Shown here one piece after another: positions 6,852-54,048 of a DNA stretch of 64,000 nucleotides. This stretch comes from Niabella yanshanensis (lineage in GTDB: Bacteria > Bacteroidota > Bacteroidia > Chitinophagales > Chitinophagaceae), in assembly GCF_034424215.1 (NCBI RefSeq), contig NZ_CP139960.1, forward strand, positions 4,650,001-4,714,000, given 5' to 3'. Below the pieces are notes generated by a model, which worked only from the letters and a program-made list of their open reading frames with translations, did not search any database and had not been told where the DNA came from. Made by a program: the position numbers and the translations under genes. The stretch's first letter is position 1. Each line of letters starts with the position of its first letter.

Positions 6852-6896
6852 GCAGGACGCAGCAGGACAATTAAAGCAAACCTGCATTTATTTTCG
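6852..6896 (+). promoter_or_regulatory. direct-repeat promoter module before GH28 (copy 1)
   Basis: Two half-sites GCAGGACGCA (6852-6861) and GCAGGACAAT (6862-6871) are spaced exactly 10 bp. A TATTTTCG box (6889-6896) resembling the Bacteroidota -7 element begins 27 bp after the second half-site starts. The same architecture occurs at 32593, 32694 and 54004. An activator site is inferred. Confidence 0.6.
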
Positions 6897-6986
6897 TAGC
6901 TGCTTCCGGGTATCATGTTGACGATGATGTGCTGTATGGCAAAGCAACTTTTTTTATTTATCCCCCGGATTTTAATATCGACGAAT

Positions 6987-8360
6987 ATGATGAAAACAAG
7001 AAGTGTCGGCGTCCTGCTCCTGTGTATATGGGTGACGTTATGTTCTTTTCAAAAGGGCAACAAAGTGCAGGTAAATGAGACAAGAGTGTCCACTCCTTTT
7101 GGACAATTAAAAATATTGACCCCCGATTTTAGTAAATGCGCTGAATTTAATATTGCAAAATTTGGCGCGGTTAAAGGCGACAAGGAACAAACTTCGGAAG
7201 CTATTGCCGAAGCTATCAACGCTGCCAGCACTGCGGGGGGAGGAATCGTAGTGGTTCCCGAAGGAGAGTGGCTGACTAAAAAGATCCATCTGAAAAGCAA
7301 TGTGAATCTGCGTATTGATAAAGGTGGGCTGTTGTTGTTTTCGGAGTCTCCTGAAGATTATTTGCCAGCTGTTCATACTACCTGGGAGGGCATGGAATGT
7401 CTGAATTATTCACCGTTGATTTATGCCTACCAATGTAAAAATGTGGCAATCAGCGGTGAAGGGGAAATTAAAGCCCAAATGGATACCTGGAAACAATGGT
7501 TCAGTCGTCCACCTGCTCACATGCAAAGTATCAAAAGATTGTATAACCTGGCGCAGGATTATACGCCCCTGAGTCAAAGAATGATGGTCAACGACAGCGC
7601 GCACCTGCGTCCGCAGTTCATCCAGTTTAACCGTTGTGAAAATGTATTGCTGGAAGGTATTACTATTACCAATAGTCCTTTTTGGACCATTCATCCTTAC
7701 CTGAGCAGAAATGTCCTGATCCGTAAGCTAAAAGTATATGCGCATGGACATAACAATGATGGGGTGGATCCCGAAATGAGTCAAAATGTATTAGTAGAAG
7801 ACTGCGAATTTGATCAGGGTGATGATGCGATCGCTATTAAATCGGGCCGAAACCCCGAAGGTTGGCGGCTTAAAACACCATCAAGAAATATCGTTATCCG
7901 TAACTGTTTCGTGAAGAACGGGCATCAGCTGGTGGCAATCGGCAGCGAATTGTCGGGCGGTATCGAAAATGTATATGTTGAAAACTGCAAAGTCGCCGAA
8001 ACTAATAAAGAGCTGATGCATTTGCTGTTTATTAAAACCAATGAGCGTATGGGGGGGTATGTGAAAAATATTTTTGTTCAAAATGTAACAGCGCATCATA
8101 TCAAAGAAGGTATCCTGGGTATCGATATGGATGTATTGTATCAATGGCGCAACCTGGTACCCACGCGTATAAAAAAACTGACACCAATACAGGATGTATA
8201 CCTCAGCCAGGTAAAAGCGCAGTCGGGTAAGTTCGTGGCTAAGATCAATGGTAGCCCGGAACTTCCTGTAAAAAATATAAGGTTACTGCAAACAGATATG
8301 GCTCAGGTTTCGGAAGAAAAAATACAGGAGAAAAATGTGTCGGGTTTCCTGTTTCAATAA
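6987..8360 (+). CDS. polygalacturonase-like glycoside hydrolase, GH28
   Basis: Right-handed beta-helix enzyme of family GH28, which hydrolyses alpha-1,4-galacturonosyl (or rhamnogalacturonan) linkages by inversion. The family motifs are present in order: NNDGVD (the NTD block), GDDAIAIKSG (the DD block), GHQLVAIGSE (the GHG block, with the second Gly replaced by Gln) and a Lys in FIKTNERMGG in place of the usual RIK. These supply the three catalytic Asp residues and the His. The N-terminal half begins with the usual FGAVKGDKEQ element. I start at ATG 6987 or 6990, where MMKTRSVGVLLLCIWVTLC makes a signal sequence; the open frame extends back to 6915 without a better start. The promoter module at 6852-6896 lies about 90 bases upstream. 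Confidence 0.88.
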   Translation: MMKTRSVGVLLLCIWVTLCSFQKGNKVQVNETRVSTPFGQLKILTPDFSKCAEFNIAKFGAVKGDKEQTSEAIAEAINAASTAGGGIVVVPEGEWLTKKIHLKSNVNLRIDKGGLLLFSESPEDYLPAVHTTWEGMECLNYSPLIYAYQCKNVAISGEGEIKAQMDTWKQWFSRPPAHMQSIKRLYNLAQDYTPLSQRMMVNDSAHLRPQFIQFNRCENVLLEGITITNSPFWTIHPYLSRNVLIRKLKVYAHGHNNDGVDPEMSQNVLVEDCEFDQGDDAIAIKSGRNPEGWRLKTPSRNIVIRNCFVKNGHQLVAIGSELSGGIENVYVENCKVAETNKELMHLLFIKTNERMGGYVKNIFVQNVTAHHIKEGILGIDMDVLYQWRNLVPTRIKKLTPIQDVYLSQVKAQSGKFVAKINGSPELPVKNIRLLQTDMAQVSEEKIQEKNVSGFLFQ

Positions 8361-8366
8361 GTGTTT

Positions 8367-8386
8367 GATGAAGTTTCATCTTTTTA
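8367..8386 (+). terminator. weak hairpin after GH28
   Basis: Short stem GATGA/TCATC (8367-8371 with 8376-8380), loop AGTT, followed by five T. It could end the GH28 transcript, but the stem is only 5 bp. Confidence 0.35.
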
Positions 8387-8510
8387 TGAGCGGGCTGAAG
8401 CTGTAAAAATTGGGGTAAGGCTAAAGATAACTGGTGACATGTCTGATTTCAGTGGCCGGGCCGGGAACAACCAACAAAAAGTAATTTAATACTAAAAATA
8501 TACAGAACAT

Positions 8511-9881
8511 ATGAACAGGAGCCATTTTACATGGAAGCTGCTGATAATAGCAGCAGTGTTGTTCTTGGTGCAGACTACACAGTCTGCCTGGTCGCAAAAG
8601 TTTAAACAATGGGCGCAAACACCTCCCATGGGGTGGAACAGTTGGGATTGTTATGGTCCTACCGTTGAGGAGCATGAAGTGAAAGCAAATGCAGATTATA
8701 TGGCCAAATATCTTAAGGCTTATGGTTGGGAATATATAGTGGTAGACATTCGCTGGTTTGTAGAAAACGATAAAGCCGGTGGATACAACCAAACCAATCC
8801 GCGTTATGTACTGGATGAGTATGGCCGTTATCAGCCCGCAGTCAATCGTTTCCCTTCAGCCGCAGGAGGTAAGGGTTTCAAAGAGCTGGCTGAATATATC
8901 CATAAAAAAGGGTTGAAGTTTGGTATTCATATTATGCGCGGTATTCCTAAAGAGGCCGTAGACAAGAAGTTGCCTGTAAAAGGTACAGCTAATATAACGG
9001 CTGACCAGGTATATACCACCGAGCTGCAATGTAAATGGCTTAAAGACAACTATACGATACTGGCTGATAAACCGGGTGCACAGGAGTATTATAATTCGAT
9101 CATGGACCTATACGCGTCCTGGGGTGTTGATTTTATCAAGATCGATGATCTGTCCCGGCCTTATCACCAGCGTGAAATAGAACTGATCCGGAAGGCGATC
9201 GATCAAACCGGCCGCCCAATCGTATTAAGCACTTCTCCCGGTGAAACACCTGTTGAAAATGCTGCGCATGTACAAGCCCATGCCAATATGTGGCGCATGG
9301 TAGATGACGTATGGGATGTGTGGAAGGATATGACCCATTTAATAAAAGTAGCGCAGGGTTGGTACCCTTATATACAACCGGGAGGCTGGCCTGATTGCGA
9401 CATGATACCTTTGGGACGTATCTCTATCAGGGGTGAACGTGGTAATGATCGCATGACGCGCCTTACAAAAGATGAACAGTATAGTTTGATGACCTTGTTT
9501 ACCATTTTTAAATCGCCATTGATGTTTGGCGGAGATCTCCCAAGTAACGATACTTTTACTTTATCCTTACTTAGCAATAAAGAGGTGCTGAAAATGCACA
9601 GGGAAGCTACCGGTGTAAGGCAGCTGTTCCAGGTTGAAGGAAAAGTCGCAATCACATCGCGGCATCCTAAGACGGGAGAGGTGTACCTGGCCTTATTCAA
9701 TGTTGGGGATGGTAAAGAGCCTGCTGAACTTAATGTGTTATTAGCTGATTTAGGCTTTGATGCTAAGGCTAAAATAGTAAACCTGTGGACGGGAAAAAAA
9801 CTGGGAGTGATTTCGGGAAATTTTAAACAGGAACTGCTGCCTCATGCTTCAGGCTTATATAAATTTACGGCCGTTCGCTAG
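8511..9881 (+). CDS. secreted alpha-galactosidase-like enzyme, GH27
   Basis: 456 residues with an N-terminal signal sequence (hydrophobic LLIIAAVLFLVQ, probable cleavage near WSQ). The GH27/GH36 clan pattern is clear: PPMGWNSWDCYG at the start of the barrel, VVDIRW, then the nucleophile Asp in FIKIDDL (about D212) and the acid/base Asp in RMVDDVWD (about D265-266). A beta-sandwich C-terminal domain ends with the usual WTGKKLG segment. Family members remove terminal alpha-galactose, alpha-N-acetylgalactosamine or beta-L-arabinopyranose from branched polysaccharides. The nucleophile is in KIDDL rather than the classical KYD, and there is an insertion (IMRGIPKEAVDKK) after strand 3, so specificity may differ from typical alpha-galactosidases. 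A strong terminator lies 125 bases downstream. Confidence 0.85.
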   Translation: MNRSHFTWKLLIIAAVLFLVQTTQSAWSQKFKQWAQTPPMGWNSWDCYGPTVEEHEVKANADYMAKYLKAYGWEYIVVDIRWFVENDKAGGYNQTNPRYVLDEYGRYQPAVNRFPSAAGGKGFKELAEYIHKKGLKFGIHIMRGIPKEAVDKKLPVKGTANITADQVYTTELQCKWLKDNYTILADKPGAQEYYNSIMDLYASWGVDFIKIDDLSRPYHQREIELIRKAIDQTGRPIVLSTSPGETPVENAAHVQAHANMWRMVDDVWDVWKDMTHLIKVAQGWYPYIQPGGWPDCDMIPLGRISIRGERGNDRMTRLTKDEQYSLMTLFTIFKSPLMFGGDLPSNDTFTLSLLSNKEVLKMHREATGVRQLFQVEGKVAITSRHPKTGEVYLALFNVGDGKEPAELNVLLADLGFDAKAKIVNLWTGKKLGVISGNFKQELLPHASGLYKFTAVR

Positions 9882-32592: not shown

Positions 32593-32638
32593 ACAAGATA
32601 CAACAGGATGGTTGACTTTTATACAAGCATTACTTTCG
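32593..32638 (+). promoter_or_regulatory. direct-repeat promoter module before FAS1/SusCD operon (copy 2, distal)
   Basis: Half-sites ACAAGATACA (32593-32602) and ACAGGATGGT (32603-32612) at a 10-bp step, then TACTTTCG (32631-32638) 28 bp after the second half-site start. Same architecture as copies 1, 3 and 4. It lies in the 452-base divergent gap 32459-32910. Confidence 0.5.
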
Positions 32639-32693
32639 GTGCGTACGATTGGGAAAGTGATTTTTTACAGGTTTTAGTAAGATCAGCTAAAAG

Positions 32694-32739
32694 ACAGGAT
32701 GCAACAGGATAGTAAAAAATAAAGCCTTTTTTATTTTCG
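32694..32739 (+). promoter_or_regulatory. direct-repeat promoter module before FAS1/SusCD operon (copy 3, proximal)
   Basis: Half-sites ACAGGATGCA (32694-32703) and ACAGGATAGT (32704-32713) at a 10-bp step, then TATTTTCG (32732-32739) 28 bp after the second half-site start. It lies 101 bp downstream of copy 2, so the operon has two such modules in tandem. Leader to the FAS1 start at 32911 is about 170 bases. Confidence 0.6.
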
Positions 32740-32910
32740 TTATAAGACGATTAAAAATAGGAAACGATTGCAGAGAAAAACTGAGAATAACAATAAAATT
32801 TAAACAAAACAACTGGAATTAATTTCCAACCGACAAAGATTGTAGGCAGTAACAACAGCCGGTGCAATGTGCCGCGCCGTATGGTATTGCTAATGTCAAA
32901 AAACGAAAAG

Positions 32911-35139: not shown

Positions 35140-35176
35140 ATGCTGAAGATAGCGTGCAGCCCTAATTACAGGCTTT

Positions 35177-38488: not shown

Positions 38489-38521
38489 ATAAGATAGAAT
38501 AACTATTGAATTAATTAGGTT

Positions 38522-40024: not shown

Positions 40025-40129
40025 CGATGCGTCGCAAACAGCCCGTTTTCACCAGGCTGTAAAAAACTATAGAGATGAAATGAGCCATAAACATTACATA
40101 CACGAACGGAATGATAGTTGGGCGAAATC

Positions 40130-40150
40130 CCTGTCTGCCGAACAGGCAGG
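40130..40150. repeat. REP-like palindrome inside the SusCD operon
   Basis: CCTGTCTG (40130-40137) pairs with CAGGCAGG (40143-40150) with one G-T wobble around a CCGAA loop. It could be an mRNA stabiliser or attenuator after susD, or a dispersed repetitive element. No T run follows. Confidence 0.5.
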
Positions 40151-40184
40151 CGTCCGACCCCAATAAAAATTAAAACATATACGG

Positions 40185-41858: not shown

Positions 41859-41896
41859 AAAGTGAGCATCTACAAACTAAATTGAAAAAATAATTC

Positions 41897-43252
41897 ATGT
41901 ACAGGAAAATAATACAAATATTGTTCGTGGTTACAGGGTCGGCATTACTGCTGGCAGGATGTAAAAAATGGGACGATCATAATGCGTTAACCGATGACGG
42001 ACTTACCATGAATCTTGCGGAGCGTATAGCAAATAATACGGACTTGAGCAGATTTATGGAGCTTTTGCGTCAATCGGGCTATGCGGATACATTGGAGACA
42101 TCCAAAATGTTTACGGTGTTTGCGCCTACGAATGCAGCGCTTGCTAATCTTTTACCTGCGATTGAAAATGATGCGGCAGCTTTAAAGCAGTTCGTAGGTA
42201 GCCATATTTCCAGCCAGGCCTACTACACTTCAGACATGGATGTTATGGCGCGTATTCCCATGTTGAACGGCAAGTACCATAACCTTACAGCTGAAAATGT
42301 AGATGGAGTGGCTATTGCCGGAAAGGATCAGCTGGCCAAAAATGGGGTATTACAGATTATCAGTGAAGCGCTGCCGGCTTTACCCAATATACAACAATTT
42401 ATTGCATCTGATGAACGCATGCCTGGGAAACAAAAAGCTGCACTACTCTCTGTAGATTCTCTCTTTTCATCGAGGGTACATGATGCGGGTGTTGAGGCTA
42501 AAAATCATACACTATTTGTTTTAAGAGATGCCGCCTGGCAGGCAGAAGTGGATAAATTAATACCCTATAGCACCGTACCAGGCAATAACGATAGCACTGC
42601 AAAAGTGGCAGGATGGTTGGTTGCTAAGGATTTACTGGTGGATACCTTGTACAGTTCAGCTGCTGCTATTCCCGATACCATCGTTTCAAAGTTTGGTGTT
42701 CGGGTAGGAATAAATAAAACTGCTATTGCCGAAGCCATTACGACCAGCAACGGTGTAGTATATGTACTGAATCAACTGGATGTGCCCTTACACAACAAAT
42801 TTCCGGTCGTTGTTATTGAGGCAGAAAATTATACATCAGCCAGTCATAACCGGGTGGCCAATACTTTTATAAGAGATAAAAGAGACTCCGCAACGGGTGG
42901 TATATTCAGGGATGTGCTGGTGTACAATCACGGGGTGGCTCAGTTCAATCTCCGTTACCGGCTTACCGATATTCCAGCGCTTACTTATCGTGCTTACTGG
43001 ATGGCATTGAACGATAACATTAACGGTATGACGGCGCCATTTACACAAAAAATAGGAGTAGATTCTTTCAACTCTCCTTTGCCCGCATATGCTACTGTAG
43101 AAATGAACCGGTATGCCGAGCAACTGGCAGGTGAGTTTACTTTAACCAGTTATAAGCCTGTATTTAATTTGTATTTAACTGCCGCTAACAGTACCGCCAC
43201 TAATAGCAATGCACTGGTATGTAACTATATCAGGCTGGTTCCGGTGTTCTAA
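41897..43252 (+). CDS. FAS1-domain lipoprotein with C-terminal sandwich module
   Basis: 451 residues, 38 bases after the previous FAS1 gene. Lipobox LLAGC followed by Lys-Lys-Trp-Asp-Asp, fitting the Bacteroidota surface-lipoprotein export signal. FAS1 domain one is at about 30-165 (KMFTVFAPTNAALANLLP, NGVLQIISEALPALP). A second covers about 170-295 with NGVVYVLNQLDVP. The C-terminal 150 residues begin VIEAENYTS, similar to the opening strand of family-6-like carbohydrate-binding modules, and end LVCNYIRLVPVF. The layout matches the neighbour at 40185 with a different sequence, so the two are probably ancient duplicates. Likely on the cell surface, holding or recognising glycan. Confidence 0.82.
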   Translation: MYRKIIQILFVVTGSALLLAGCKKWDDHNALTDDGLTMNLAERIANNTDLSRFMELLRQSGYADTLETSKMFTVFAPTNAALANLLPAIENDAAALKQFVGSHISSQAYYTSDMDVMARIPMLNGKYHNLTAENVDGVAIAGKDQLAKNGVLQIISEALPALPNIQQFIASDERMPGKQKAALLSVDSLFSSRVHDAGVEAKNHTLFVLRDAAWQAEVDKLIPYSTVPGNNDSTAKVAGWLVAKDLLVDTLYSSAAAIPDTIVSKFGVRVGINKTAIAEAITTSNGVVYVLNQLDVPLHNKFPVVVIEAENYTSASHNRVANTFIRDKRDSATGGIFRDVLVYNHGVAQFNLRYRLTDIPALTYRAYWMALNDNINGMTAPFTQKIGVDSFNSPLPAYATVEMNRYAEQLAGEFTLTSYKPVFNLYLTAANSTATNSNALVCNYIRLVPVF

Positions 43253-43277
43253 CTCGTTTATTTAGAATAAAAAGATT

Positions 43278-46200
43278 ATGATGTATAAAAGTTTTAAGCC
43301 TGTATTAACTGTAGCGATGACTTTGTTACTGTTTGCCACAGGTAGCGCTCAGACTACAGATTCCCTAAATCAGAAAAAAGTGCCTGTAGCGCTGGAGGAA
43401 AGGGTGGTAACGGGCGTGGTAAGGGATGCCGCTACCCGATGGGGCATCAACGGCGCCCGCCTGCAGGTGCAGGGCTTTTCAGCGACCATTGCGGACAGCG
43501 TAGGACAGTACACTATAAAAGTGCCCGCACCCACTGCTATCATTTTAGTAGAGGCAGATGGCTATGATCCGCAAGTGGTTTCGGTTAAACACAGAGATCA
43601 AATTGAAGTAGTGCTGCTGTCGCGAAGCACAAAGTCTTTTAATGAAACGATGGTGACCCCAACTGGCCGGCTGGTTCGAAAATTTATAACTTCAAATGCA
43701 GAGCAGGTAATGGCCAAAGGCTGGCAGCAGCCGATGGAAACAGTGGACGCGATGTTGCAGGGCGAGGTAGCTGGTTTAAATTCCATCCGCCGCTCAGGGG
43801 GACAGGGCGCAGGCGCTAATTTGTTTTTGAACGGCATCAATTCGCTGTATGCTACCAACAGGCCGCTTATTATTGTAGACGGTATGCCTTTTGAAGCCAA
43901 CGATTACGGGCAAAGCCTTGTTGCGAATAATTATACAAATCCGCTCAGTATAATCGATGTGAAAGATATCGATCGCATTACCGTATTGAAGGATGCGGCA
44001 GGTATTTATGGCGCTAAAGGATCAAACGGCACTATCATCATCACAACTGTAAGTGCCGAAGGCCGGCAGGCTACTCAAATTGATGCAGGTGTTTTTGCGA
44101 GCTTCAATGTCGCACCCCAAAACCTACCCTTATTAAATGTAAGTGATTATCGTTCGCATCTTAGCCGCATGTTGGCTACCAGTGGCATGACAGCAGAAGA
44201 AATTGCCGCTCAGCCCTTTATGGTCGACAATGTTTCTAGCCCGGACTATTACAAATATCACAATAATACCGATTGGCAACGTAAGGTTTTCAATAATAGC
44301 ATGAATCAAAACGGTTATGTACGCATCACCGGCGGTGATAATATTGCCACCTACGGTCTTACCGTCGGTTATCTGAAAAACACAGGCATTATTAAAAATA
44401 CCGAACTGGAGCGCTACCACACGCGCTTCAACGCCGATTTCAATTTCACAGAGAAACTGACCGGGAAAGTGAACCTTTCTTTTTCTTACAACGAACAAAA
44501 CCTGAAGGACCAGGGTATCGCCGATAAAACGGGACCTTTATTTAATGCTTTAGTGAAATCACCTTTCCTTGCAGATCGGGAACGTGCCGCAGATGGCACC
44601 GAATCACCCAACCTGGAAGCCGTAGATATACTGGGCTTAAGCAACCCAGTGGTATTGACGGATCTGCTTCAGGCTTCGAATAAATATTACCGTTTTTTTG
44701 GATCTTACGGCTTCAAGTTTGAAATCAATAAATACATGGCAGCCAGCACCCTGATCGGGATTCAATTTGATAAGGTGCGCGAAACTTTTTTCGTCCCCAG
44801 CGAGGGTGTGGTGCGGGATACTCTTTGGAATGCCGTTGCCAACAATCGTATGGGATCGCAGGTAAAGCAACTGTTTTCCCTTTTTAATGACACGAAGCTC
44901 GAGTATAACAGGAACTTTAATTATAATCACTCAGTTACAGCGAGGCTGGGTATACGATACCAAAATAACCGGGCAAACCAGATAAGCGTAACTACCGCCA
45001 ATTCTGCAACAGATGATCTCGTTTCTGTTCAGAATGGTTTGGCAGCTTTGCGTTTGGTTACGGGAGATATGGGCGAGTGGAACTGGATGAATGCATATCT
45101 GGGTGCTGATTACGGGTTTAAAAATAAGATATTCCTGAGCCTTAATATGGCCATGGATGGATCTTCAAGGTTTGGAGTAAAGGCTGCAAACGGTCTCTCA
45201 ATAGCGGGTCGGCAGTTTCCGTTGTTTCCTTCTTTGGGGGCTGCCTGGTTGCTTTCCTCAGAAAAATTCATGTCAGCGTCTGATATTAATCTCCTTAAGT
45301 TAAGAGCTTCATACGGTATTGCAGGTAACGATGATATTGGAAACTACACCGGGCTGTTTTTATATACCGGTCAGAATTTGCTGGGTGCGCAAGGATTCGT
45401 GAGGAAAGGGATTGCCAACCCATCGCTGCAATGGGAAACTGTGCATAAGCTCAATGGTGGGGTAGATCTTGCTTTCTGGAATGAAAGAGTAACCTTTAGC
45501 CTGGATGCCTTCAGCAACCGTACTACTAATATGCTGGTGTACCGGCCTTTGCAGAGCCCTGCCGGATTTAGCACAGTGCTCACCAACGATGGCGAATTGA
45601 AAAACAACGGAGTGGAAGGAAGTTTTAATGTGCGCGTAGTGAATACGAAGGATGTGAAATGGGATTTTGGCGCTAACATTGCTACTTATAAAAACAAGAT
45701 CGTAAGCGTTCCCGGTGGAGAGATTTTTACAGAGTTTGCCGGTGCTACAATTCGTACAGCGGCCGGCCAGCCAGCGAACCAGTTTTACGGTTACCAAACA
45801 AATGGTATTTTTAGCTCAAACGCCGAAGCAACATCAGCTGGCCTGTCAATGGTGAACGAAAAGGGTGGCACAACGGCATTTAAAGGCGGCGATGTGCGCT
45901 TCGTGGATATGAATGGCGATAAGCTCATCGATGAGAACGATCGTACGGTTATCGGCGATGCCAATCCGGACTTTTTTGGAGGAATCAGCAATCGACTTAT
46001 ATACCGCGGTTTTGAGTTAAGTGCTTTGATTACGTATTCAGTAGGCAGCGAAGTGTTTAATTATTTACGTTATCGCCTGGAATCTCAAAGTGGACCGGAA
46101 AACCAGTTACAAAGTGTATTGAATAGCTGGCGTACTGACGGGCAGCAAACTAATATGCCCAGGGCCAATTGGGGCGATCCCATGGGCAACAATCGCTTTA

Positions 46201-46457
46201 GCGATCGTTGGATAGAAGATGGTTCTTATCTGCGCCTGCGTTCGTTAAATCTTACGTACAATTTCAAAATGAAGCCCGGCGCACCGTTTAAAAGTATCGC
46301 TGTATCGGCTACAGGCAACAACCTGTTTACTGTTACCAAATATTTAGGGTACGATCCTGAGTTCAGTCCCTTCCCCAGTCCGCTGGCACAGGGTATTGAT
46401 ACGGGCATGGATCCCGTTTTCAAAAATGTGGTGCTGGGTGTAAGGTTAGGGCTGTAA
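43278..46457 (+). CDS. susC: SusC/RagA-family transporter (second pair)
   Basis: 1059 residues. Signal peptide ending GSAQ; start 43278 or 43281 (ATGATG). The N-terminal regulatory-like domain is at about 40-115 (RVVTGVVRDAATRWGINGARLQV). The plug has AMLQGEVAGLNSIRRSGGQG, NRPLIIVDGMPFE and DIDRITVLKDAAGIYGAKGSNGTIIITT, followed by the barrel with FSLDAFSNRTTNM and GNNLFTVTKYLGYDPEF near the end. It is 25 bases after the FAS1 gene, so in the same transcript. In the plug, the usual ALQGRVAG is AMLQGEVAG (Arg to Glu) and GSRGANG is GAKGSNG, so it is a divergent branch compared with the first SusC. Confidence 0.94.
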   Translation: MMYKSFKPVLTVAMTLLLFATGSAQTTDSLNQKKVPVALEERVVTGVVRDAATRWGINGARLQVQGFSATIADSVGQYTIKVPAPTAIILVEADGYDPQVVSVKHRDQIEVVLLSRSTKSFNETMVTPTGRLVRKFITSNAEQVMAKGWQQPMETVDAMLQGEVAGLNSIRRSGGQGAGANLFLNGINSLYATNRPLIIVDGMPFEANDYGQSLVANNYTNPLSIIDVKDIDRITVLKDAAGIYGAKGSNGTIIITTVSAEGRQATQIDAGVFASFNVAPQNLPLLNVSDYRSHLSRMLATSGMTAEEIAAQPFMVDNVSSPDYYKYHNNTDWQRKVFNNSMNQNGYVRITGGDNIATYGLTVGYLKNTGIIKNTELERYHTRFNADFNFTEKLTGKVNLSFSYNEQNLKDQGIADKTGPLFNALVKSPFLADRERAADGTESPNLEAVDILGLSNPVVLTDLLQASNKYYRFFGSYGFKFEINKYMAASTLIGIQFDKVRETFFVPSEGVVRDTLWNAVANNRMGSQVKQLFSLFNDTKLEYNRNFNYNHSVTARLGIRYQNNRANQISVTTANSATDDLVSVQNGLAALRLVTGDMGEWNWMNAYLGADYGFKNKIFLSLNMAMDGSSRFGVKAANGLSIAGRQFPLFPSLGAAWLLSSEKFMSASDINLLKLRASYGIAGNDDIGNYTGLFLYTGQNLLGAQGFVRKGIANPSLQWETVHKLNGGVDLAFWNERVTFSLDAFSNRTTNMLVYRPLQSPAGFSTVLTNDGELKNNGVEGSFNVRVVNTKDVKWDFGANIATYKNKIVSVPGGEIFTEFAGATIRTAAGQPANQFYGYQTNGIFSSNAEATSAGLSMVNEKGGTTAFKGGDVRFVDMNGDKLIDENDRTVIGDANPDFFGGISNRLIYRGFELSALITYSVGSEVFNYLRYRLESQSGPENQLQSVLNSWRTDGQQTNMPRANWGDPMGNNRFSDRWIEDGSYLRLRSLNLTYNFKMKPGAPFKSIAVSATGNNLFTVTKYLGYDPEFSPFPSPLAQGIDTGMDPVFKNVVLGVRLGL

Positions 46458-46690
46458 TTAGTGTGGATAATGGAGCATTTGTGTCAGTCGCGCGGGACAG
46501 GCCTTGAAAAAAATAACGGCTAAAAAAAATGATTGTATGAAGCTGTTAAAAAGCTGCTTAAGGAAAAGGTGGATGAATAAGTTAAAATAAAAAGCTCGCT
46601 GTCTGTGAGCGGTAAGTAGTTGACAGGAAGATCAGTGTTGGCAACCCTGACCAAGAATATAAATTGAATCGTGTTTAAAAACATATACGG

Positions 46691-48475
46691 ATGAAAAGAT
46701 TTTTTTTAAAAACAGTAGTGGTGGCGATTGCGGCGATAAACCTGTTGACGGGCTGCAAGAAAATGTTCGAAAAGCTACCCACCAACGAGCTGGAAGCTGA
46801 AAAGGCCTATGAAAATGTGTTCGATGCGGACGCCGCGGTAATGGGTATTTACGGTAAATTTATGGGCCTTGCCGAGCAGTACATTGTGTTGAACGAACTG
46901 CGCGGCGACCTATTGAATTATACGCAGAATGCCGATAAATGGTTACGCCAGGTAAGTAATCATACGGTTGAGGCAGACAATCCTTATGCAGATCCCCGGC
47001 CTTTTTATGAGCTGATCATTAATTGTAATGATGTTTTGTACAACATGAACCTGATGTACCGCGACAAAAAGCTGAGTGAGATGAACTACAACGAGCGTTA
47101 CTCCGATATTGCCTGCCTGCGCAGCTTTTTATACCTGCAGTTAGGCATTCATTATGGCGATGAAGTGCGTTACGTTACCAGCCCGCTGGCAACTATAGAA
47201 GACGCAACCAACCCCGCATTGTTTCCTAAAGTACCCTTCGATGCTTTGCTGGATTCACTGATCGCGTTTACCGAACCTATTCCTTACAAAGCGCAATATT
47301 CTTCCGGTTCGAGCCTTGACATCATATTGGATGGGTATCCTACTGCCGCATTCTTCATCAACAAAAAAGTATTGCTGGGTGATTTGTATTTATGGAAAGG
47401 TAAGTTTAACATGGCAGCGACTTATTACAGAGAAGCTATGGAGGTTGCAACACCCCAAGGTGCCACTGAGAATGGCTATTCTCAATATAAAATGGGTTGG
47501 TTTGGAGGTTCGGATCCCTGGACCGATAACCGGGTTACCTTTACTTCACGTGCCAAAGAGGGAGATATGAACTCTCTGTTGTATAATTCCGGATGGCCCA
47601 CTATGTTCACAGCAACTGCCGCTAGCGAGAATTATACCCGGGAGTGGGTTTGGGCTCTGCCCTTTGACAATAAATTTGCACCTGCCAACCCTTTTATAAA
47701 ACTGTTCTCTCCAGTGGGTGGCGATTATCTGTTAAAGCCCTCAAAACAGGTAACGGATCTTTGGGCCAGCCAGCAAATAGGCCCAAGGGGTATTCCCGGC
47801 GCCGGCGCTCCTTACGATCCCCGTGGACTGTATAGTGTTATTAATATAAGTGGCCAACCCGTTGCCATGAAGTTTATATCCAAATACCTCAACAGAGACA
47901 GCCAGTTGCCGGTAGATGTTTTAGTAAAGAACGGAGACTGGTACCTGTTTCGTCAGACGCAATTGGTGATGCGTTTTGCTGAAGCCGCTAACCGGGCAGG
48001 CTGGCATCGTTTGGCTTATGCATTCATTAGTAACGGAATTGGTGGGGTTTTCAATAATCCTGAGAATCCGAATGTTCCGGACAAAACTCCGTGGCAAAAT
48101 ACACTGACGTACCCCGCTCCTTACAATTTCGATGCAAGGAACGGAGAAATACCTCGGTATCGGGGAGACTGGTACCGTCATATGGGCGTAAGAAGCCGCG
48201 CTTATATAATGCCTTTAGAAATTACGGCTACCAATGTAGCAGATAGCTTAATACAGGTTGAAGACGGGCTACTACAGGAAACCGCTTTGGAAAATGCTTT
48301 TGAAGGCACCCGCTGGGCCGACCTGCTGCGCATTGCCCGTCACCGAAATGACCCGTCGATTATTGCTGATAGAGTGTATCAGAAATTATTAAAGGATGGC
48401 GATCCGAATGCGGGAGCCGCAAGAGCTAAGCTGATGAATAGGGAGGGATGGTATTTGCCGTTTAAACTGGATTAG
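46691..48475 (+). CDS. susD: SusD/RagB-family lipoprotein (second pair)
   Basis: 594 residues. Lipobox LLTGC followed by Lys-Lys. SusD signatures: the LPTNELEAEKAYENVFDADAAVMGIY opening, RYSDIACLRSFLYLQLGIHYGD, INKKVLLGDLYLWKGKFNMAATYYREAME, and near the C terminus ALENAFEGTRWADLLRIARHRNDPS with YLPFKLD at the end. It is about 95 residues longer than the first SusD, with an insertion in the middle region. It sits 233 bases after its SusC, a longer gap than usual; the gap holds no gene. The start region shares a 20-base word with the 40185 FAS1 gene. Confidence 0.94.
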   Translation: MKRFFLKTVVVAIAAINLLTGCKKMFEKLPTNELEAEKAYENVFDADAAVMGIYGKFMGLAEQYIVLNELRGDLLNYTQNADKWLRQVSNHTVEADNPYADPRPFYELIINCNDVLYNMNLMYRDKKLSEMNYNERYSDIACLRSFLYLQLGIHYGDEVRYVTSPLATIEDATNPALFPKVPFDALLDSLIAFTEPIPYKAQYSSGSSLDIILDGYPTAAFFINKKVLLGDLYLWKGKFNMAATYYREAMEVATPQGATENGYSQYKMGWFGGSDPWTDNRVTFTSRAKEGDMNSLLYNSGWPTMFTATAASENYTREWVWALPFDNKFAPANPFIKLFSPVGGDYLLKPSKQVTDLWASQQIGPRGIPGAGAPYDPRGLYSVINISGQPVAMKFISKYLNRDSQLPVDVLVKNGDWYLFRQTQLVMRFAEAANRAGWHRLAYAFISNGIGGVFNNPENPNVPDKTPWQNTLTYPAPYNFDARNGEIPRYRGDWYRHMGVRSRAYIMPLEITATNVADSLIQVEDGLLQETALENAFEGTRWADLLRIARHRNDPSIIADRVYQKLLKDGDPNAGAARAKLMNREGWYLPFKLD

Positions 48476-48608: not shown

Positions 48609-49934
48609 ATGATGAATAAAAGTATAAAACTGTTTGTTGTATTATTAATGGCTTTTAGTGCTCAGCTAACAGCCCAGGACCTTTTTCCCGATGGTACGCC
48701 CATCCCTGACTGGTTCAGGAAAAATGAATTGACTGATTTTAAAAAACTAGGTAAGCAGTATCGAATTACTGCCTATGGTGTTAAAGCAGACAGCAACCTG
48801 GTGCAAACCCAGGCTATACAGGCGGTAATTGATAAAGCTGCCGCAGCCGGCGGCGGTGTTATCATTATTCCAAAGGGAGTTTTTTTAAGTGGCAACCTGT
48901 TTTTTAAACCAGGCACGCACCTGCACCTGGAAGAGGCCGCTACGCTGAAAGCCAGTGATGATATCAGTGATTTTAAAGTGTTGACTACTCGCATTGAAGG
49001 CGAAACCTGTAAATATTTCCCGGCGCTCGTTAATGCAGATGGTGTCAACGGATTTACTATTTCCGGCAAAGGAACGCTGAATGGCAATGGCCTGCGCTAT
49101 TGGAAAGCATTCTGGTTGCGTCGTAGCTGGAATCCCAAATGCACCAATAAAGATGAAATGAGGCCGCGCCTTCTGTATATATCCAATAGTAAAGATGTAC
49201 AGGTATCTGGCATACGGCTGATCAATTCTCCCTTCTGGACCTCTCACTATTACAAATGCGAAAACCTGAAATTGCTAAACCTTTACATCTATGCGCCTGC
49301 TGCACCGGTTAAAGCGCCGAGCTCCGATGCCATCGATTTAGATGTCTGCAAAAATGTATTGATCAAAAATTGCTACATGTCGGTGAATGATGATGCCGTA
49401 GCGCTAAAAGGTGGTAAAGGCCCGCAGGCAGATAAAGACCCTGAGAACGGTGGTAATTTTAATGTAATTATTGAAGACAATGTTTTTGGTTTCTGTCATG
49501 GCGCACTTACCTTCGGCAGCGAATCTGTTCATAACCGCAATATCATTTTACGTCGCATCAAAATAGATCACGCGCAAAGATTATTATGGTTGAAAATGCG
49601 CCCGGACACACCGCAGCTGTATGAATATGTAACGGTGGAGGATATCAAAGGTAGTGTAACCAATATGCTTTATATCCAGCCCTGGACTCAGTTCTTCGAT
49701 CTGAAAGGGGAGAAGGATATCAAAATGTCTTACGCCCATCATATCACTATGAAGAACCTGAAGCTGGATTGTGATAATGTATTTAATGTGAGCAACTCAG
49801 AGCAATATAAACTGACCAATTTTTCATTTAAAGTTTGGAAGGTAAAAGCAGCTAAAAATCCTGCCATACACCAAAACTATATCGATACCTTCACCCTGGA
49901 AAATGTGGTGGTGAACGGCAAAAATGTTCAGTAA
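48609..49934 (+). CDS. GH28-family pectinase-like enzyme of the PUL
   Basis: 441 residues. Signal peptide (IKLFVVLLMAFSAQLTAQ). Parallel beta-helix of GH28: the opening AYGVKADSNLVQTQAIQAVID, then SSDAIDLDV (NTD block equivalent), VNDDAVALKGG (DD block), CHGALTFGSE (GHG block with first Gly to Cys) and LLWLKMRPDT where the RIK motif would be. The catalytic Asp positions are kept. It differs clearly from the GH28 at 6987, so the two probably cleave different galacturonan or rhamnogalacturonan bonds. It is the last gene of the FAS1/SusCD block, 133 bases after SusD. The gap 49935-50228 after it shows no gene. Confidence 0.85.
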   Translation: MMNKSIKLFVVLLMAFSAQLTAQDLFPDGTPIPDWFRKNELTDFKKLGKQYRITAYGVKADSNLVQTQAIQAVIDKAAAAGGGVIIIPKGVFLSGNLFFKPGTHLHLEEAATLKASDDISDFKVLTTRIEGETCKYFPALVNADGVNGFTISGKGTLNGNGLRYWKAFWLRRSWNPKCTNKDEMRPRLLYISNSKDVQVSGIRLINSPFWTSHYYKCENLKLLNLYIYAPAAPVKAPSSDAIDLDVCKNVLIKNCYMSVNDDAVALKGGKGPQADKDPENGGNFNVIIEDNVFGFCHGALTFGSESVHNRNIILRRIKIDHAQRLLWLKMRPDTPQLYEYVTVEDIKGSVTNMLYIQPWTQFFDLKGEKDIKMSYAHHITMKNLKLDCDNVFNVSNSEQYKLTNFSFKVWKVKAAKNPAIHQNYIDTFTLENVVVNGKNVQ

Positions 49935-50228: not shown

Positions 50229-51086
50229 ATGGACACACAGGCTAATATCAACTTTAAAAGAATAGCGGACGCAATCGATTATATTAAGGCCAATTTCAAG
50301 TCGCAACCTAATTTGGATGAAGTCGCAAAAAGTATCCACTTAAGTCCGGCGCATTTTCAAAGGCTGTTTACAGAATGGGCGGGCACCAGTCCGAAAAAGT
50401 TCTTACAATATATCAGTATTGAGCATGCCAAGAAAATGCTTCAACAAGACCAGGTAAGTTTGTTCGACGCAGCCTTCGAAACGGGGTTGTCCAGCACCAG
50501 CCGCTTACACGATCTTTTTGTGAATATAGAAGGGATGACACCTGCTGAATATAAAAACGGTGGAAAGAGTCTGCACATCTTGTACAGTTTTGCAGAAAGC
50601 CCTTTTGGTCCTTTAATTGTGGCCTCAACACCCAAAGGTGTTTGTTATATGGCATTCGAAAATGATGAAGAAAAAGCATTAAGGGATCTCGTTGCAAAAT
50701 TTCCTAATGCGGTTTTTGAAAGAAAATTAGACCTGCTGCAACAAAATGCCTTATTCATTTTCCAGGATGACTGGAGCAAACTTAGCCAGGTTAAATTGCA
50801 CCTGAAAGGAACGGCTTTTCAAATAAAAGTCTGGGAAAGTTTATTAAAGATCCCAATGGGAAGACTGTCCACCTACGGTAGCCTTGCGGCTGCGATGGGT
50901 AGCCCGAATGCTTCAAGAGCGGTAGGTACTGCAATAGGAAGTAATCCTGTAGCTTTTTTAATTCCCTGTCATCGCGTCATTCAGTCAACCGGTACTTTTG
51001 GTGGCTATATGTGGGGGCCAACGCGAAAAGCTGCCATTATCGGCTGGGAAGGTGCACACACTCAATCCAATATTGCAACACTATGA
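50229..51086 (+). CDS. ada: AraC-type HTH fused to O6-methylguanine-DNA methyltransferase (Ada lacking the zinc domain)
   Basis: 285 residues. Residues about 10-110 are an AraC-family DNA-binding domain (IDYIKANFKSQPNLDEVAKS ... FDAAFETGLSSTSRLHDLFV ... GMTPAEYK). Residues about 115-280 are an MGMT/Ogt domain: IKVWESLLKIPMGRLSTYGSL, then the active-site IPCHRVIQ (acceptor about C247) and GGYMWGPTRKAAII. This is Ada without its N-terminal Cys4 methylphosphotriester domain; a separate short gene in the same operon carries that domain. It would both repair alkylated guanine and control the operon. The stop overlaps the next start by 4 bases (ATGA). Confidence 0.92.
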   Translation: MDTQANINFKRIADAIDYIKANFKSQPNLDEVAKSIHLSPAHFQRLFTEWAGTSPKKFLQYISIEHAKKMLQQDQVSLFDAAFETGLSSTSRLHDLFVNIEGMTPAEYKNGGKSLHILYSFAESPFGPLIVASTPKGVCYMAFENDEEKALRDLVAKFPNAVFERKLDLLQQNALFIFQDDWSKLSQVKLHLKGTAFQIKVWESLLKIPMGRLSTYGSLAAAMGSPNASRAVGTAIGSNPVAFLIPCHRVIQSTGTFGGYMWGPTRKAAIIGWEGAHTQSNIATL

Positions 51087-51796
51087 AAACAATTGAGCAG
51101 AAAATAGCAGCGACGGAATGGCCGGCGGTTACAGAAGCCATGCATCACAAGGGGTATTCGATCATTCCCAGGCTGTTGTCGGATGAGCAATGTGAGGAGT
51201 TGAAAGCCAGCTACGATCGCCCTGATCTGTATCGCAAAACGGTGGTGATGGAACGTTATCGTTTTGGACTGGGTGAGTATAAGTATTTTAACTACCCGTT
51301 GCCCGGGTTGATTGAGACAATAAGAACAACCATTTATCCTCATTTGGCAACAATTGCCAATTCATGGTTTAAGGCTTTGAATATGGATATACAGTTTCCG
51401 TTACAGCATGTTGAACTATTGAAGCAATGCCATATCAACAACCAGGAAAAGGCCACTGTTTTAATTTTAAAGTATGGCGCAGGCGGTTTTAACACGCTGC
51501 ATCAGGATCTGTACAGCGATATCTATTTTCCCATACAGGTGGTTTTGATGCTGAACGAGCCTGGAACTGATTTTACCGGTGGTGAATTGGTATTAACACA
51601 GCAGGTTCCAAGAGCGCAGTCCAAAGCAATCGTTCTTCAGCCGGGAAAAGGCGATGCAGTGATCTTTACCACTAATTTTAAACCAGAGAAAGGGGCAAAG
51701 GGCTATTACCGGGTGAATATGAAACATGGTGTAAGCGAAGTGAAATCCGGGAAAAGGCATACGCTGGGTATTATTTTTCATGATGCATCAAGTTAA
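51083..51796 (+). CDS. 2-oxoglutarate/Fe(II) oxygenase of the alkylation-repair operon
   Basis: 237 residues from ATG 51083, chosen because it overlaps the upstream TGA by 4 bases; the longer frame from 51011 runs inside the MGMT gene. The double-stranded beta-helix fold is marked by the Fe(II) triad: HxD in TLHQDLYSD (about H140, D142) and a distal His in MKHGVSEV (about H215), with the 2-oxoglutarate-binding Arg in KRHTLGIIF about ten residues later. GGELVLTQQ and KGDAVIFTTN are typical of the P4H-like/Fe-2OG superfamily. It is distinct from AlkB, encoded two genes later. Its place between MGMT and the Ada zinc domain suggests alkylation repair or an Ada-regulated function. Confidence 0.87.
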   Translation: MKTIEQKIAATEWPAVTEAMHHKGYSIIPRLLSDEQCEELKASYDRPDLYRKTVVMERYRFGLGEYKYFNYPLPGLIETIRTTIYPHLATIANSWFKALNMDIQFPLQHVELLKQCHINNQEKATVLILKYGAGGFNTLHQDLYSDIYFPIQVVLMLNEPGTDFTGGELVLTQQVPRAQSKAIVLQPGKGDAVIFTTNFKPEKGAKGYYRVNMKHGVSEVKSGKRHTLGIIFHDASS

Positions 51797-51799
51797 GGT

Positions 51800-52045
51800 A
51801 TGATACGGCATGCAGCCATTTCAGATAGTGCCCTGAGAAGCTGGATACGCAGTGGAAAGATAAGCTGGGGCGGCCATCAGCAACTGAAAATATATGGTGT
51901 ATTAAACTGTACTACCGGCAAAAAAATGAAAAGAACGAACAGGGTATTCTTTGCATCTGAACAGGAAGCCCTGCGAAATGGTTACCGGCCCTGCGGACAT
52001 TGCATGAGAGCGGCCTACAAAAAATGGAAATATGGATCTCTTTAA
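51800..52045 (+). CDS. stand-alone Ada-type metal-binding domain
   Basis: 81 residues. The C-terminal two thirds match the N-terminal zinc domain of Ada: IYGVLNC corresponds to the segment with the methyl-accepting Cys, VFFASEQEALRNGYRPCGHC to its FYANASEALAAGFRPCKRC region. Three Cys are seen; a second Cys in the first pair (as in the CRPSC segment of E. coli Ada) is absent, so the ligand set may be three Cys or use another residue. In Ada this domain removes methyl groups from phosphotriesters and switches on the AraC half. Here it is separate from the AraC-MGMT gene two genes upstream. It begins 3 bases after the oxygenase stop and its end overlaps the AlkB start by 14 bases. Confidence 0.72.
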   Translation: MIRHAAISDSALRSWIRSGKISWGGHQQLKIYGVLNCTTGKKMKRTNRVFFASEQEALRNGYRPCGHCMRAAYKKWKYGSL

Positions 52046-52646
52046 TCAAACAACCAATAAGGATAAGAACTGGCTTCCGTTCGATGGAACGGTTAATTAT
52101 TATGGAAAACTATTGTCGAAAATAGAGGCAGATTTTTACCTGGAAAGGCTGTTAAATACCATTGAATGGCGAAACGATGAAGCCGTTATTTTTGGCAAAA
52201 AGATTATCACCAAAAGAAAAGTGGCCTGGTATGGCAACAAACCCTACGAGTATACCTACTCTAATACAACCAAGCGGGCCTTGCCCTGGACCGAAGAGTT
52301 GATGGCATTAAAAGCTTTGATTGAAAAAGAAACCGGCGAAACTTTTAATTCCTGCCTGCTCAATTTGTATCATAACGGAGAGGAAGGAATGGCCTGGCAC
52401 AGCGATGCAGAAACGGATCTGAAAAAGGATGGCGCCATAGCATCCTTTAGTTTGGGGGCAGAAAGAAAATTTGCTTTCAAGCATAAACAAACCAAAGAGA
52501 AAATAGAAATGGTGTTAGAGCATGGCAGCTTGTTGATCATGAAAGATACCACGCAAACCTTTTGGTGGCACCGCTTGCCACCCAGTAAAAAAATAACCAG
52601 GCCCCGGGTTAATCTCACATTCAGAACCATTGTAAGCAGTGAATAA
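52032..52646 (+). CDS. alkB: alpha-ketoglutarate-dependent DNA dealkylase AlkB
   Basis: 204 residues. AlkB-family fold of the ALKBH2/3-like type: NLYHNGEEGMAWHSDAE has the HxD pair (about H123, D125), FSLGAERKFAFKHK is the conserved central strand, GSLLIMKDTTQTFWWHRLPP carries the distal His (about H180) and RVNLTFR the 2OG-binding Arg and adjacent Arg. These enzymes oxidatively remove 1-methyladenine and 3-methylcytosine lesions. It is the last gene of the operon and overlaps the Ada zinc-domain gene by 14 bases, so co-translation is likely. Confidence 0.93.
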   Translation: MDLFNQTTNKDKNWLPFDGTVNYYGKLLSKIEADFYLERLLNTIEWRNDEAVIFGKKIITKRKVAWYGNKPYEYTYSNTTKRALPWTEELMALKALIEKETGETFNSCLLNLYHNGEEGMAWHSDAETDLKKDGAIASFSLGAERKFAFKHKQTKEKIEMVLEHGSLLIMKDTTQTFWWHRLPPSKKITRPRVNLTFRTIVSSE

Positions 52647-52732
52647 AAGCTATCAGATCAGTACTCAGTAAATAATTTTAAATATGATTTAATTTTTGTA
52701 TGTTTATTCGGTTTGAGTAAACTAATGGAAAT

Positions 52733-53542
52733 ATGAAATCTGTTTATTATTGTTTGTTGTTATCGTTAGTGGTTCTCGCAGCTTGTTCCGATACTTCCGC
52801 CCAGCCGGATCCTGTACCGGTGCATGAGACCTTTTTTATAGAATCAAAAAATGTAAAAGAAAAAAGAACCATCAATGTATGGACACCGCCCGGCTATTCG
52901 GTGGTAACTGACTCTTTCGCTGTTGTATACATGCCCGATGGCGGAGTGAAAGAAGACTTCCCACATATAGCAAATACACTGGCCGAATTGATTGCTGCCC
53001 AAAAAATTCCGGCAGTGATACTGGTCGGTATAGAAAACACACAACGCCGCAGAGATATGTCGGGACCTACACAGATAAAAAAGGATAAAGAGATCGCTCC
53101 CGTAGTCGGAGGTTCGGCCGCATTCAGAACTTTCGTAAAAGACGAACTTTTTCGGGAAGTTGATAAACGATATCGTACTACCGGCAAAAAAACTATTATA
53201 GGGGAGTCTTTGGCCGGGCTATTTGTTGTGGAAACCTTTTTTCAGCATCCCGAACTATTTGATGGATATATAGCAATAGATCCATCCTTGTGGTGGAATG
53301 ATCATCAGTTGGTAAAAAATGCAAAGAACTATTTGTCAACCATGCCCGAAAGTAAGCGGCTTTGGTTTGCCGGATCACAGGCAAAAGATATTTCCCGTTA
53401 TACCCAACAGCTATCAGGCATATTGGAAACCACCGGGGTTAAGGATCTTCAATGGCACTATTCAGATGAGCCAAAAGAACAGCATCAGACCATCTTTAGG
53501 GCGGTTAAAGAAAAAGCGTTGATATGGACCCTGAGTAAATGA
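52733..53542 (+). CDS. secreted esterase of the alpha/beta-hydrolase fold (esterase D/enterochelin-esterase-like)
   Basis: 269 residues. Lipoprotein signal (LVVLAAC). The fold is that of the putative esterase family (Fes/esterase-D group): KEKRTINVWTPPGYS, FAVVYMPDGG, PAVILVGIENTQRRRDM, nucleophile elbow GESLAG, then FDGYIAIDPSLWWND and a C-terminal His in KEQHQTIFRAV. These enzymes cleave acyl or siderophore esters; in a sugar-utilising context an acetyl- or feruloyl-esterase role is possible but not shown. It lies 86 bases after AlkB with its own AT-rich upstream region, so it is probably a separate unit. Confidence 0.8.
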   Translation: MKSVYYCLLLSLVVLAACSDTSAQPDPVPVHETFFIESKNVKEKRTINVWTPPGYSVVTDSFAVVYMPDGGVKEDFPHIANTLAELIAAQKIPAVILVGIENTQRRRDMSGPTQIKKDKEIAPVVGGSAAFRTFVKDELFREVDKRYRTTGKKTIIGESLAGLFVVETFFQHPELFDGYIAIDPSLWWNDHQLVKNAKNYLSTMPESKRLWFAGSQAKDISRYTQQLSGILETTGVKDLQWHYSDEPKEQHQTIFRAVKEKALIWTLSK

Positions 53543-53551
53543 TCGAACGTA

Positions 53552-53808
53552 GGGGAGATATCTTATGAACAGCAAACCGAAGATATTACAATTGCAGTTG
53601 AGCAGCATGAAGCTTTAGAGAAACCTGTTTTTACAAGTAGATTTTACTTCAATACCGACGAGCTAGACGCCTTGTTGCAATCTTTAAAAGACAAGGTGAA
53701 AGTATGCTACCCTATTGACGATTTCGAGTGGGAATGCGCGAATCGGCATTTTATGATAATAATGATTACCTGCGGCAATCTGGACAGGGTATCGCTACCT
53801 TAAAATAG
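53552..53808 (+). pseudogene. decayed glyoxalase/VOC-family gene fragment
   Basis: Directly after the esterase stop, in the same frame, GEISYEQQTEDITIAVEQHE continues through VFTSRFYFNTDELDALLQSL, KDKVKVCYPIDDFEWE. This is the C-terminal half of a glyoxalase/bleomycin-resistance (VOC) domain. The expected ending then appears in another frame from 53734 (MRESAFYDNNDYLRQSGQ) to a stop at 53806-53808, so a frameshift lies near 53730. The N-terminal half is missing. No start codon or ribosome site fits the fragment. The remaining gap to 54099 holds the promoter module at 54004 and otherwise nothing I can identify. Confidence 0.65.
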
Positions 53809-54003
53809 TTTCGCATCTTGCCAGGTAGCAATTATTTAAAGTTGAAGGTTTCCTGATCTCCTCCCTGTCCGCTATTTACTTTAAGATCTGTATCAATTGC
53901 TTATTTCCGGTTAAAATGTATCGTTCAAACTAATGATTTCAAACGATTGAAAATACAAGTCGATTGAAGAATCGGATAAAAAGGGGAGTAGGAGCAGGTA
54001 AGG

Positions 54004-54048
54004 ACAGGATGCAGCAGGATAATAAATAATCAAACTCTTCTATTTTCG
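54004..54048 (+). promoter_or_regulatory. direct-repeat promoter module before GH2 (copy 4)
   Basis: Half-sites ACAGGATGCA (54004-54013) and GCAGGATAAT (54014-54023) at a 10-bp step, then TATTTTCG (54041-54048) 27 bp after the second half-site start. The GH2 start at 54100 follows 59 bases after the box begins. Same architecture as the modules at 6852, 32593 and 32694. Confidence 0.6.

Follow-up and report, generated by a model that had tools for sequence, protein, structure and literature searches.

Four promoter regions in a polysaccharide locus

We analyzed a 64,000-nucleotide stretch of the Niabella yanshanensis genome (positions 4650001 to 4714000 of its one contig of 5,543,186 bp; hereafter the window), in which four plus-strand promoter regions share a candidate operator, a tandem repeat with a 10-bp step that is followed at a fixed distance by a -7 promoter box. 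Operator 1 (GCAGGACGCAGCAGGAC plus 2 bp, exact match, 6852 to 6870; box TATTTTCG at 6889, predicted start near 6901) stands before a GH28 gene (listed open reading frame [ORF] 6915 to 8360, the real start maybe being a later Met; Pfam PF00295, E = 4.9e-28), with which a neighboring alpha-galactosidase-like gene (8511 to 9881; Pfam Melibiase_2) may be co-transcribed. Operator 2 (ACAAGATACAACAGGAT plus 2 bp, exact match, 32593 to 32611; box TACTTTCG at 32631, predicted start near 32643) is the upstream one of a pair completed by operator 3 (ACAGGATGCAACAGGAT plus 2 bp, exact match, 32694 to 32712; box TATTTTCG at 32732, predicted start near 32744), and the pair precedes a presumed FAS1-SusC-SusD-FAS1-FAS1-SusC-SusD operon (32869 to 48475; assigned by Pfam, the second SusD falling under the cut-off), with a second GH28 gene (48609 to 49934; PF00295) at the end of the block. 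Operator 4 (ACAGGATGCAGCAGGAT plus 2 bp, exact match, 54004 to 54022; box TATTTTCG at 54041, predicted start near 54053), which has a weaker third copy, GCAGGTA, 10 bp upstream, precedes a GH2 gene (54100 to 57102), the first of a GH2-GH115-GFO/IDH-GH2 row whose GH115, GFO/IDH/MocA oxidoreductase, and second GH2 genes extend from 57119 to 63179 (all by Pfam). All of these features lie on the plus strand.

The initial annotation of this DNA had described the four sites as pairs of RCARGAY half-sites at an exact 10-bp step with a box at a set distance, and had placed them before GH28, the FAS1/SusCD operon, and GH2; the sites, distances, and downstream genes were all as described. Exact pairs start at 6852, 32593, 32694, and 54004, the sequence TANNTTCG lies 27, 28, 28, and 27 bp past the start of the second half-site, respectively, and RCARGAY-N3-RCARGAY has no further match on either strand of the window. 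Simulated windows (n = 100, first-order Markov chain) held 0.02 repeats and 0 full modules per 64 kb. The genome-wide pattern search that the annotation had suggested returned eight exact repeats versus three for a reversed-pattern control, and four of the eight fall in the window (p ~1e-6 for at least four of eight falling in 64 kb by chance). Among these eight, TANNTTCG at 27 to 28 bp is confined to the four window sites. Equal abundance inside genes, which the annotation had named as evidence against a shared promoter module, was not seen: a single repeat, one of the four outside the window, lies within a long (2.3-kb) open frame.

Conservation of the element across Niabella

The comparison set comprised 37 genomes, 17 from Niabella (Chitinophagaceae) and 20 others, referred to below as G000, G001, and so on. 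A refined pattern, CAGGAYRNNNCAGGAYR, gave 86 matches in the 17 Niabella genomes versus 5 for the reversed control (11 versus 1 in N. yanshanensis), with zero matches to this CAGGAY form in G006 and G008. A -7 box of the general form TANNTTNG was present at offset 35 to 38 in 45 of the 86 sites, none being dropped. For the logo, 10 contexts were set aside (some internal to ORFs, others, by judgement, with no clear downstream target) and 15 near-identical contexts were then removed, leaving 61 kept sites; in 34 of these, the box stands at an offset of 36 or 37 (0.13 expected). The logo of the kept sites reads CAGGAYRS-NN-CAGGAYRS-TT and shows no signal at 21 bp; the search pattern fixes part of each half-site, so the independent findings are limited to the S, the TT, and the box. 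The RCARGAY consensus of the initial annotation was revised accordingly to tandem CAKGAYRS octamers, with TANNTTCG as one form of the general box.

The sigma-A -7 box described in PMC9723704 occupies -12 to -5, and because the -7 box was set at these positions, the repeat would cover about -49 to -32, with its center at -40.5. An alternative-sigma promoter was considered and rejected: the box varies as TANNTTNG, keeps a fixed place, and is near the sigma-A -7 consensus given in the same source.

In G001, the promoter of the GH2 ortholog (protein 80% identical) has diverged, yet GCAGGACACAACAGGATAATAAA...TATTTTCG is still in place, and G003 and G012 likewise retain the module before their GH2 orthologs. 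Versions of the module also precede the FAS1 orthologs of G001, G003, G012, G007, G016, and G010, with operator 3 itself retained in the first three. The window and G012 share a spacing of 101 bp between the two modules before FAS1, and G003 also has two; a module of the operator 1 type precedes a related GH28 in G012 (L116:3642). Before FAS1 in G030 (L355; G030:C2 near 2404613), there are four half-sites in 10-bp steps and a further module about 80 bp upstream.

A separate observation concerns a LacI-type palindrome, GCAANCGNTTGC (at most one mismatch), found within 200 bp of 15 of the 61 kept sites (e.g., L152:10068 and L153:3832) against a background of ~0.02 per 400 bp. It starts exactly at -31 from the first C in 8 of the 15, and a second, phased regulator likely lies behind this palindrome, which is found upstream of many Niabella sites.

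Genes downstream of the sites

When the genes downstream of the 86 sites were grouped by similarity clusters, a GH88/105 cluster was behind 16 sites (with rhaM first in some), and further clusters were GH106 (12), SusC-like (11), FAS1 (10), GH2-type (9, one locus being counted twice), GH127 (3), GH28 (2), and rhaM-type (2). Together, the eight clusters account for 65 of the 86 sites; the remainder are one-off cases, among them some with no sensible target and two with no gene, and PL11 and PL22 genes are also found downstream of sites beyond the clustered 65. Pfam families were obtained for 8 of the 10 representatives scanned, namely, GH88 (two), GH106, GH2, GH127, rhaM, PL22, and RGL11. Outside the window, sites in N. 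yanshanensis precede a GH106-like gene (4717802), PL11 (606578), rhaT, GH88, a FAS1 paralog, rhaM with a GH88-like gene, three SusC-like genes, and a GH2-type gene. The common regulator of an acidic plant polysaccharide that the initial annotation had proposed, acting just upstream of the promoter, fits these genes for rhamnose- and uronate-containing polysaccharides; its reach of three blocks was too narrow, as the putative regulon is genome-wide and takes in rhamnose catabolism.

The rhamnose operon and a second form of the site

The rhaEW gene is present in all 17 Niabella genomes (16 above the model cut-off). In N. yanshanensis, NCBIfam models recognize rhaT and rhaEW above cut-off, and the matches of the isomerase and kinase to rhamnose models fall short of it; rhaT is preceded by TCATGACAGTGCATGACAGTT with the box at 37. 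A CATGAYRS tandem site with the box at 37 precedes the rha operon in 15 of the 16 readable Niabella upstream regions, the exception being G006; the contig of G013 stops at rhaT, leaving that region unreadable. The half-sites CATGAY and CAGGAY are one base apart, mixed sites precede PL11 in N. yanshanensis (CAGGAT/CATGAC) and in G029, and the rha operon itself stands under CAGGAY in G034 and G030. Because of these mixed sites and the CAGGAY sites before the rha operon, one protein reading both forms is the simplest explanation.

Outside Niabella, an exact tandem CAKGAY site with a box precedes the rha operon in 6 of the 11 genomes with rhaEW (G020, G025, G030, G031, G032, and G034), and in G029 a tandem site precedes the first gene of the rha cluster. 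Directly upstream of rhaT in G024 (L251), an inverted repeat, CAGGACAGTT...AACTGTCCTG, takes the place of the tandem site and may represent either a terminator or an operator in inverted form.

A candidate regulator encoded far from the window

To judge from its sequence and its distribution, the best candidate for the reader of this switch is an AraR-like protein with a GntR and a LacI-type domain, here called RhaR, a protein of 343 aa that is encoded on the minus strand at 2.014 Mb (about 2014181 to 2015212), far from the window. Its identity as the candidate regulator is well supported. In 9 of the 11 non-Niabella genomes with rhaEW, a GntR-type protein of ~345 aa is encoded at most 10 kb from rhaEW, and the nine regulator-like ORFs scanned near the rha operon comprise eight GntR and one AraC. 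The N-terminal GntR winged helix (PF00392) is above cut-off in all eight other-genus homologs scanned and in the N. yanshanensis protein; the C-terminal LacI-type domain (PF13377) is found in seven of the eight (E at most 0.001; four above cut-off) and is above cut-off in N. yanshanensis. Pfam gave no match to an aminotransferase-like domain in these homologs or in the N. yanshanensis copy, and MocR-type NCBIfam models match only the winged helix of RhaR, the best being PdxR, far below cut-off.

An ortholog (56 to 61% identity to the query) is present in 16 of the 17 Niabella genomes; G006 alone is without it and has no sites at all, and the G003 gene is split in two and carries in-frame stops. 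In the Niabella surroundings read (G000, G001, G007, G008, and G016), RhaR adjoins an engB-like gene and is near a ubiE-like gene (both named by eye). In G019, RhaR lies between engB and rhaT, with ubiE behind the rha operon, and therefore the rha operon seems to have moved away in Niabella. In G034, RhaR occurs in two copies, unlinked to the rha operon. Across the 20 genomes outside Niabella, RhaR (at least 44% identity) is found in 10 of the 11 with rhaEW and in 0 of the 9 without it (Fisher's exact test, 6e-5); the homolog in G018 has 27% identity and groups with other paralogs.

The number of modules was compared with the presence of this regulator by means of a sequence model, R1, of 33 Niabella modules (26 CAGGAY sites whose box lies at 37, together with 7 rhaT sites, two further listed sites being kept out as near-duplicates), which was searched in the 37 genomes at an E value of at most 0.1. 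Three window operators lie outside the training set and were recovered at E = 0.011 (operator 1), 2e-4 (operator 2), and 0.002 (operator 4); operator 3 scored 5.9e-7, but it belonged to the training set. The 16 regulator-positive Niabella genomes gave 14, 11, 5, 11, 5, 9, 8, 3, 5, 13, 8, 17, 0, 6, 12, and 8 matches, a total of 135 that is partly circular since this is the training genus, and G006 gave 0. Outside Niabella, the 10 regulator-positive genomes gave 1, 7, 0, 3, 1, 2, 2, 5, 0, and 11 matches (32 in all) versus 0, 1, 0, 0, 0, 1, 1, 0, 0, and 0 (3 in all, in G018, G028, and G032) for the 10 regulator-negative genomes (Mann-Whitney p 0.004). RhaR is the sole homolog at the thresholds used in G011, G020, and G030, yet these have 8, 7, and 5 module matches, respectively.

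Synteny points in the same direction. In G020, RhaR, rhaT-EW-M-I-K, FAS1-SusC-SusD-FAS1-FAS1-SusC-SusD, and GH2 are contiguous, with modules before the rha operon and before FAS1, so that the order of the window (FAS1a-SusC1-SusD1-FAS1b-FAS1c-SusC2-SusD2-GH2) is repeated there adjoining the rha operon. A region of ~96 kb in G034 holds GH106, rha genes, PL11, FAS1/SusCD, GH2, and GH115, together with 10 modules at no more than one mismatch.

Several other regulator candidates were rejected. The initial annotation had reported no regulator for the sites in the window, and none was obvious in a Pfam scan of 34 of the 76 listed ORFs of at least 90 aa: among those 34, the lone AraC domain belongs to an Ada-type repair protein, the lone histidine kinase is a PAS kinase, and there is no hybrid two-component system (HTCS) gene. 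About 22 kb past the window end (L098:1434-6458), there are a LacI gene and a split pair, a Reg_prop kinase and an AraC-type response regulator; these adjoin another locus. A conserved-looking protein of ~715 aa is encoded between outward-facing modules in several Niabella genomes (L154:1431-3566, L150:8649-10796, and L152:7206-9422); it was considered as a regulator in G005, G007, G016, and G001, but the three copies scanned (G001, G005, and G007) have no Pfam match, and it is therefore not an evident regulator. A 1263-aa ORF at the paralogous FAS1 locus (5.03 Mb) has FGAM-synthetase domains.

Proposed mechanism and alternative explanations

The element, its fixed geometry and conservation, the classes of genes behind it, and its co-occurrence and synteny with RhaR are direct observations. 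In our reading, the four window sites probably serve as operators in a single regulon that spans the genome and governs the degradation of rhamnose and of rhamnose-containing, rhamnogalacturonan-type pectin, with RhaR binding them and rhamnose as the switch; the regulator family and the reach of the regulon are what is new relative to the initial annotation. RhaR would bind two tandem boxes, CA(G/T)GAYRS-N2-CA(G/T)GAYRS, centered near -40.5; each box would take one winged helix, the two being arranged head to tail along a single face of the DNA, and the bound protein would abut RNA polymerase at the -7 box, whose distance is fixed. As we infer from the operon, the protein would sense L-rhamnose or a derivative of it, and products of pectin breakdown would turn on the rhamnose pathway along with the scattered loci for polysaccharides. 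Physical binding of RhaR to the repeats is likely. RhaR is probably an activator, of which we are less sure than of binding; activation is favored because two winged helices would sit head to tail on one DNA face near -40.5 and because the fixed spacing counters a plain repressor.

A number of observations weigh against this proposal. Of the 86 sites, 41 are without an exact box at 35 to 38. The regulator is present in G019 and G023 with degenerate tandem sites before rhaT, and in G022 (single half-site) and G024 (the inverted repeat) with no tandem site there; conversely, G032 has a rhaT site and no RhaR homolog at an E value of at most 1e-30, and G018 and G028 (72% complete) have one R1 match each and no close RhaR homolog. 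R1 found zero matches in G013, G022, and G031, the last of which has an exact tandem site by pattern. In the stretches read directly before the GH2 ortholog, there is no module in G006, G007, G010, G016, G020, G030, or G034; reading further in G020 and G034 showed GH2 behind other genes of the same locus. The domain relatives named AraR are repressors. G008 has RhaR and a CATGAY site with no CAGGAY match, and N. yanshanensis encodes four further RhaR homologs, one of them beside an alpha-L-rhamnosidase gene. A second GntR-type homolog in this genome (53% to the query; 51606-52619, L309:9603-10643) is oriented divergently to a class II aldolase gene, beyond which lies an alpha-L-rhamnosidase gene; no tandem site with a box was seen nearby.

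Among the alternatives, the one that survives best, though we consider it unlikely, is that RhaR binds the repeats as a repressor and is released by rhamnose, as in AraR, the arabinose repressor, which has the same domain architecture (PMC4494728; PDB hit 4egy). A protein on the repeat, which covers the -33 region, could stand in the way of polymerase. However, a repressor needs no fixed spacing of the kind seen at 36/37 in the kept sites, and the -33 region is taken up by the operator itself (compare johnsoniae, PMC7366714).

Less probable still is a division of labor in which RhaR binds CATGAY only and CAGGAY is left to a GntR paralog or to a protein from a different regulator family (a DeoR-type RhaR, for example). 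DeoR-type RhaR motifs elsewhere are described as direct repeats with 10-11 bp periodicity (PMC3870299), and both the four additional GntR-type homologs and the site repertoire of G008 would fit such a division. The mixed CAGG/CATG sites argue against it, as do the CAGGAY sites that G034 and G030 have ahead of the rha operon and the case of G011, which has CAGGAY sites with RhaR as its only homolog at the threshold used.

We give little credence to an unlinked AraC-type or hybrid two-component regulator that senses an acidic oligosaccharide and binds the repeats. Such systems govern many Bacteroides polysaccharide loci according to PMC3878776, a split system of this kind is encoded past the window end, and in G023 the rha operon has an AraC-type gene in its vicinity. 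However, HTCS motifs average 21 bp between sites in that source, whereas the logo is blank at 21 bp, which led us to rule out an HTCS/AraC dimer site; the stretch with the split pair and its adjoining locus yielded no module with a box, and the recurrent regulator-like neighbor of the rha operon, among the neighbors scanned, is GntR-type. Finally, a pattern shared by chance or as a general promoter feature, for which it can be said that the -7 box is common to AT-rich promoters, has a negligible probability and is already contradicted by the excess over the reversed control, by only eight exact copies in 5.54 Mb, and by retention in diverged promoters.

Relation to known systems

AraR operators are palindromic. 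No operator of that kind was seen here, the logo being a direct repeat and the lone inverted case, in G024, being ambiguous. Like RhaR, AraR of the Firmicutes combines a GntR winged helix with a LacI/GalR-type domain and governs a sugar pathway together with the polysaccharides that yield the sugar; unlike what we propose here, it is described as a repressor (PMC4494728), whereas the present sites are direct repeats in tandem that hold a fixed place in the promoter, and the sugar is apparently rhamnose. MocR-type GntR regulators, as PMC5320631 describes them, often bind direct repeats, and several (GabR and TauR) are activators, the TauR consensus being CTGGACYTAA. TauR, GabR, and PdxR resemble the proposed RhaR in placing a GntR winged helix on direct repeats and in activation, but their sensor domain is aminotransferase-like and that of RhaR is LacI-type.

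Other regulators of rhamnose operons differ in family. The AraC-type RhaR of Bacteroides thetaiotaomicron also regulates the rhamnose operon, but with a 21-bp periodicity (PMC3870299) and a single target operon, as far as PMC3878776 reports. The DeoR-type RhaR shares the rhamnose operon, direct repeats, and short periodicity with our module but belongs to a different protein family; none was recognized beside the rha operon in the loci read, and no genome-wide profiling was made. The HTCS and SusR regulons of Bacteroides likewise have direct-repeat operators before SusCD loci; however, theirs average 21 bp (HTCS) or 67/77 bp (SusR), with regulators that are often linked (PMC3878776), whereas here the step is 10 bp and in Niabella the regulator is unlinked. 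FucR and ManR of Bacteroides are also GntR sugar regulators, and the ManR regulon includes a SusCD polysaccharide operon as well (PMC3878776); their sugars are fucose and mannose. Full-text literature searches, whose coverage leaves out most subscription papers, turned up neither a RhaR that combines GntR and LacI-type domains nor this module.

Bacteroides polysaccharide loci are run largely by local membrane sensors, whereas here one unlinked sugar sensor would serve a whole genus. We lean, by a modest degree, toward a broader reading in which one cytoplasmic AraR-type rhamnose sensor is the master activator of scattered pectin polysaccharide utilization loci, in the genus and beyond, via head-to-tail tandem boxes with a 10-bp step and a center near -40.5. 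If this is true, then (i) the catabolism of a monosaccharide would be coupled to many polysaccharide loci, replacing one membrane sensor per locus, and (ii) there would be a branch of direct-repeat-binding activators within a subfamily known as repressors, offering a case for how a GntR plus LacI-type protein could activate. A regulon readable from sequence would also make pectin genes predictable, including the unexplained FAS1-domain proteins.

Other features of the window

In the middle of the polysaccharide locus (50229-52646), the Ada-type AraC/methyltransferase gene is accompanied by two DNA-repair-type 2OG-Fe(II) oxygenase genes. Elsewhere in the window (19550-23866), a 1438-aa ORF fuses an AcrB-type efflux pump with an outer-membrane efflux (OEP) domain.

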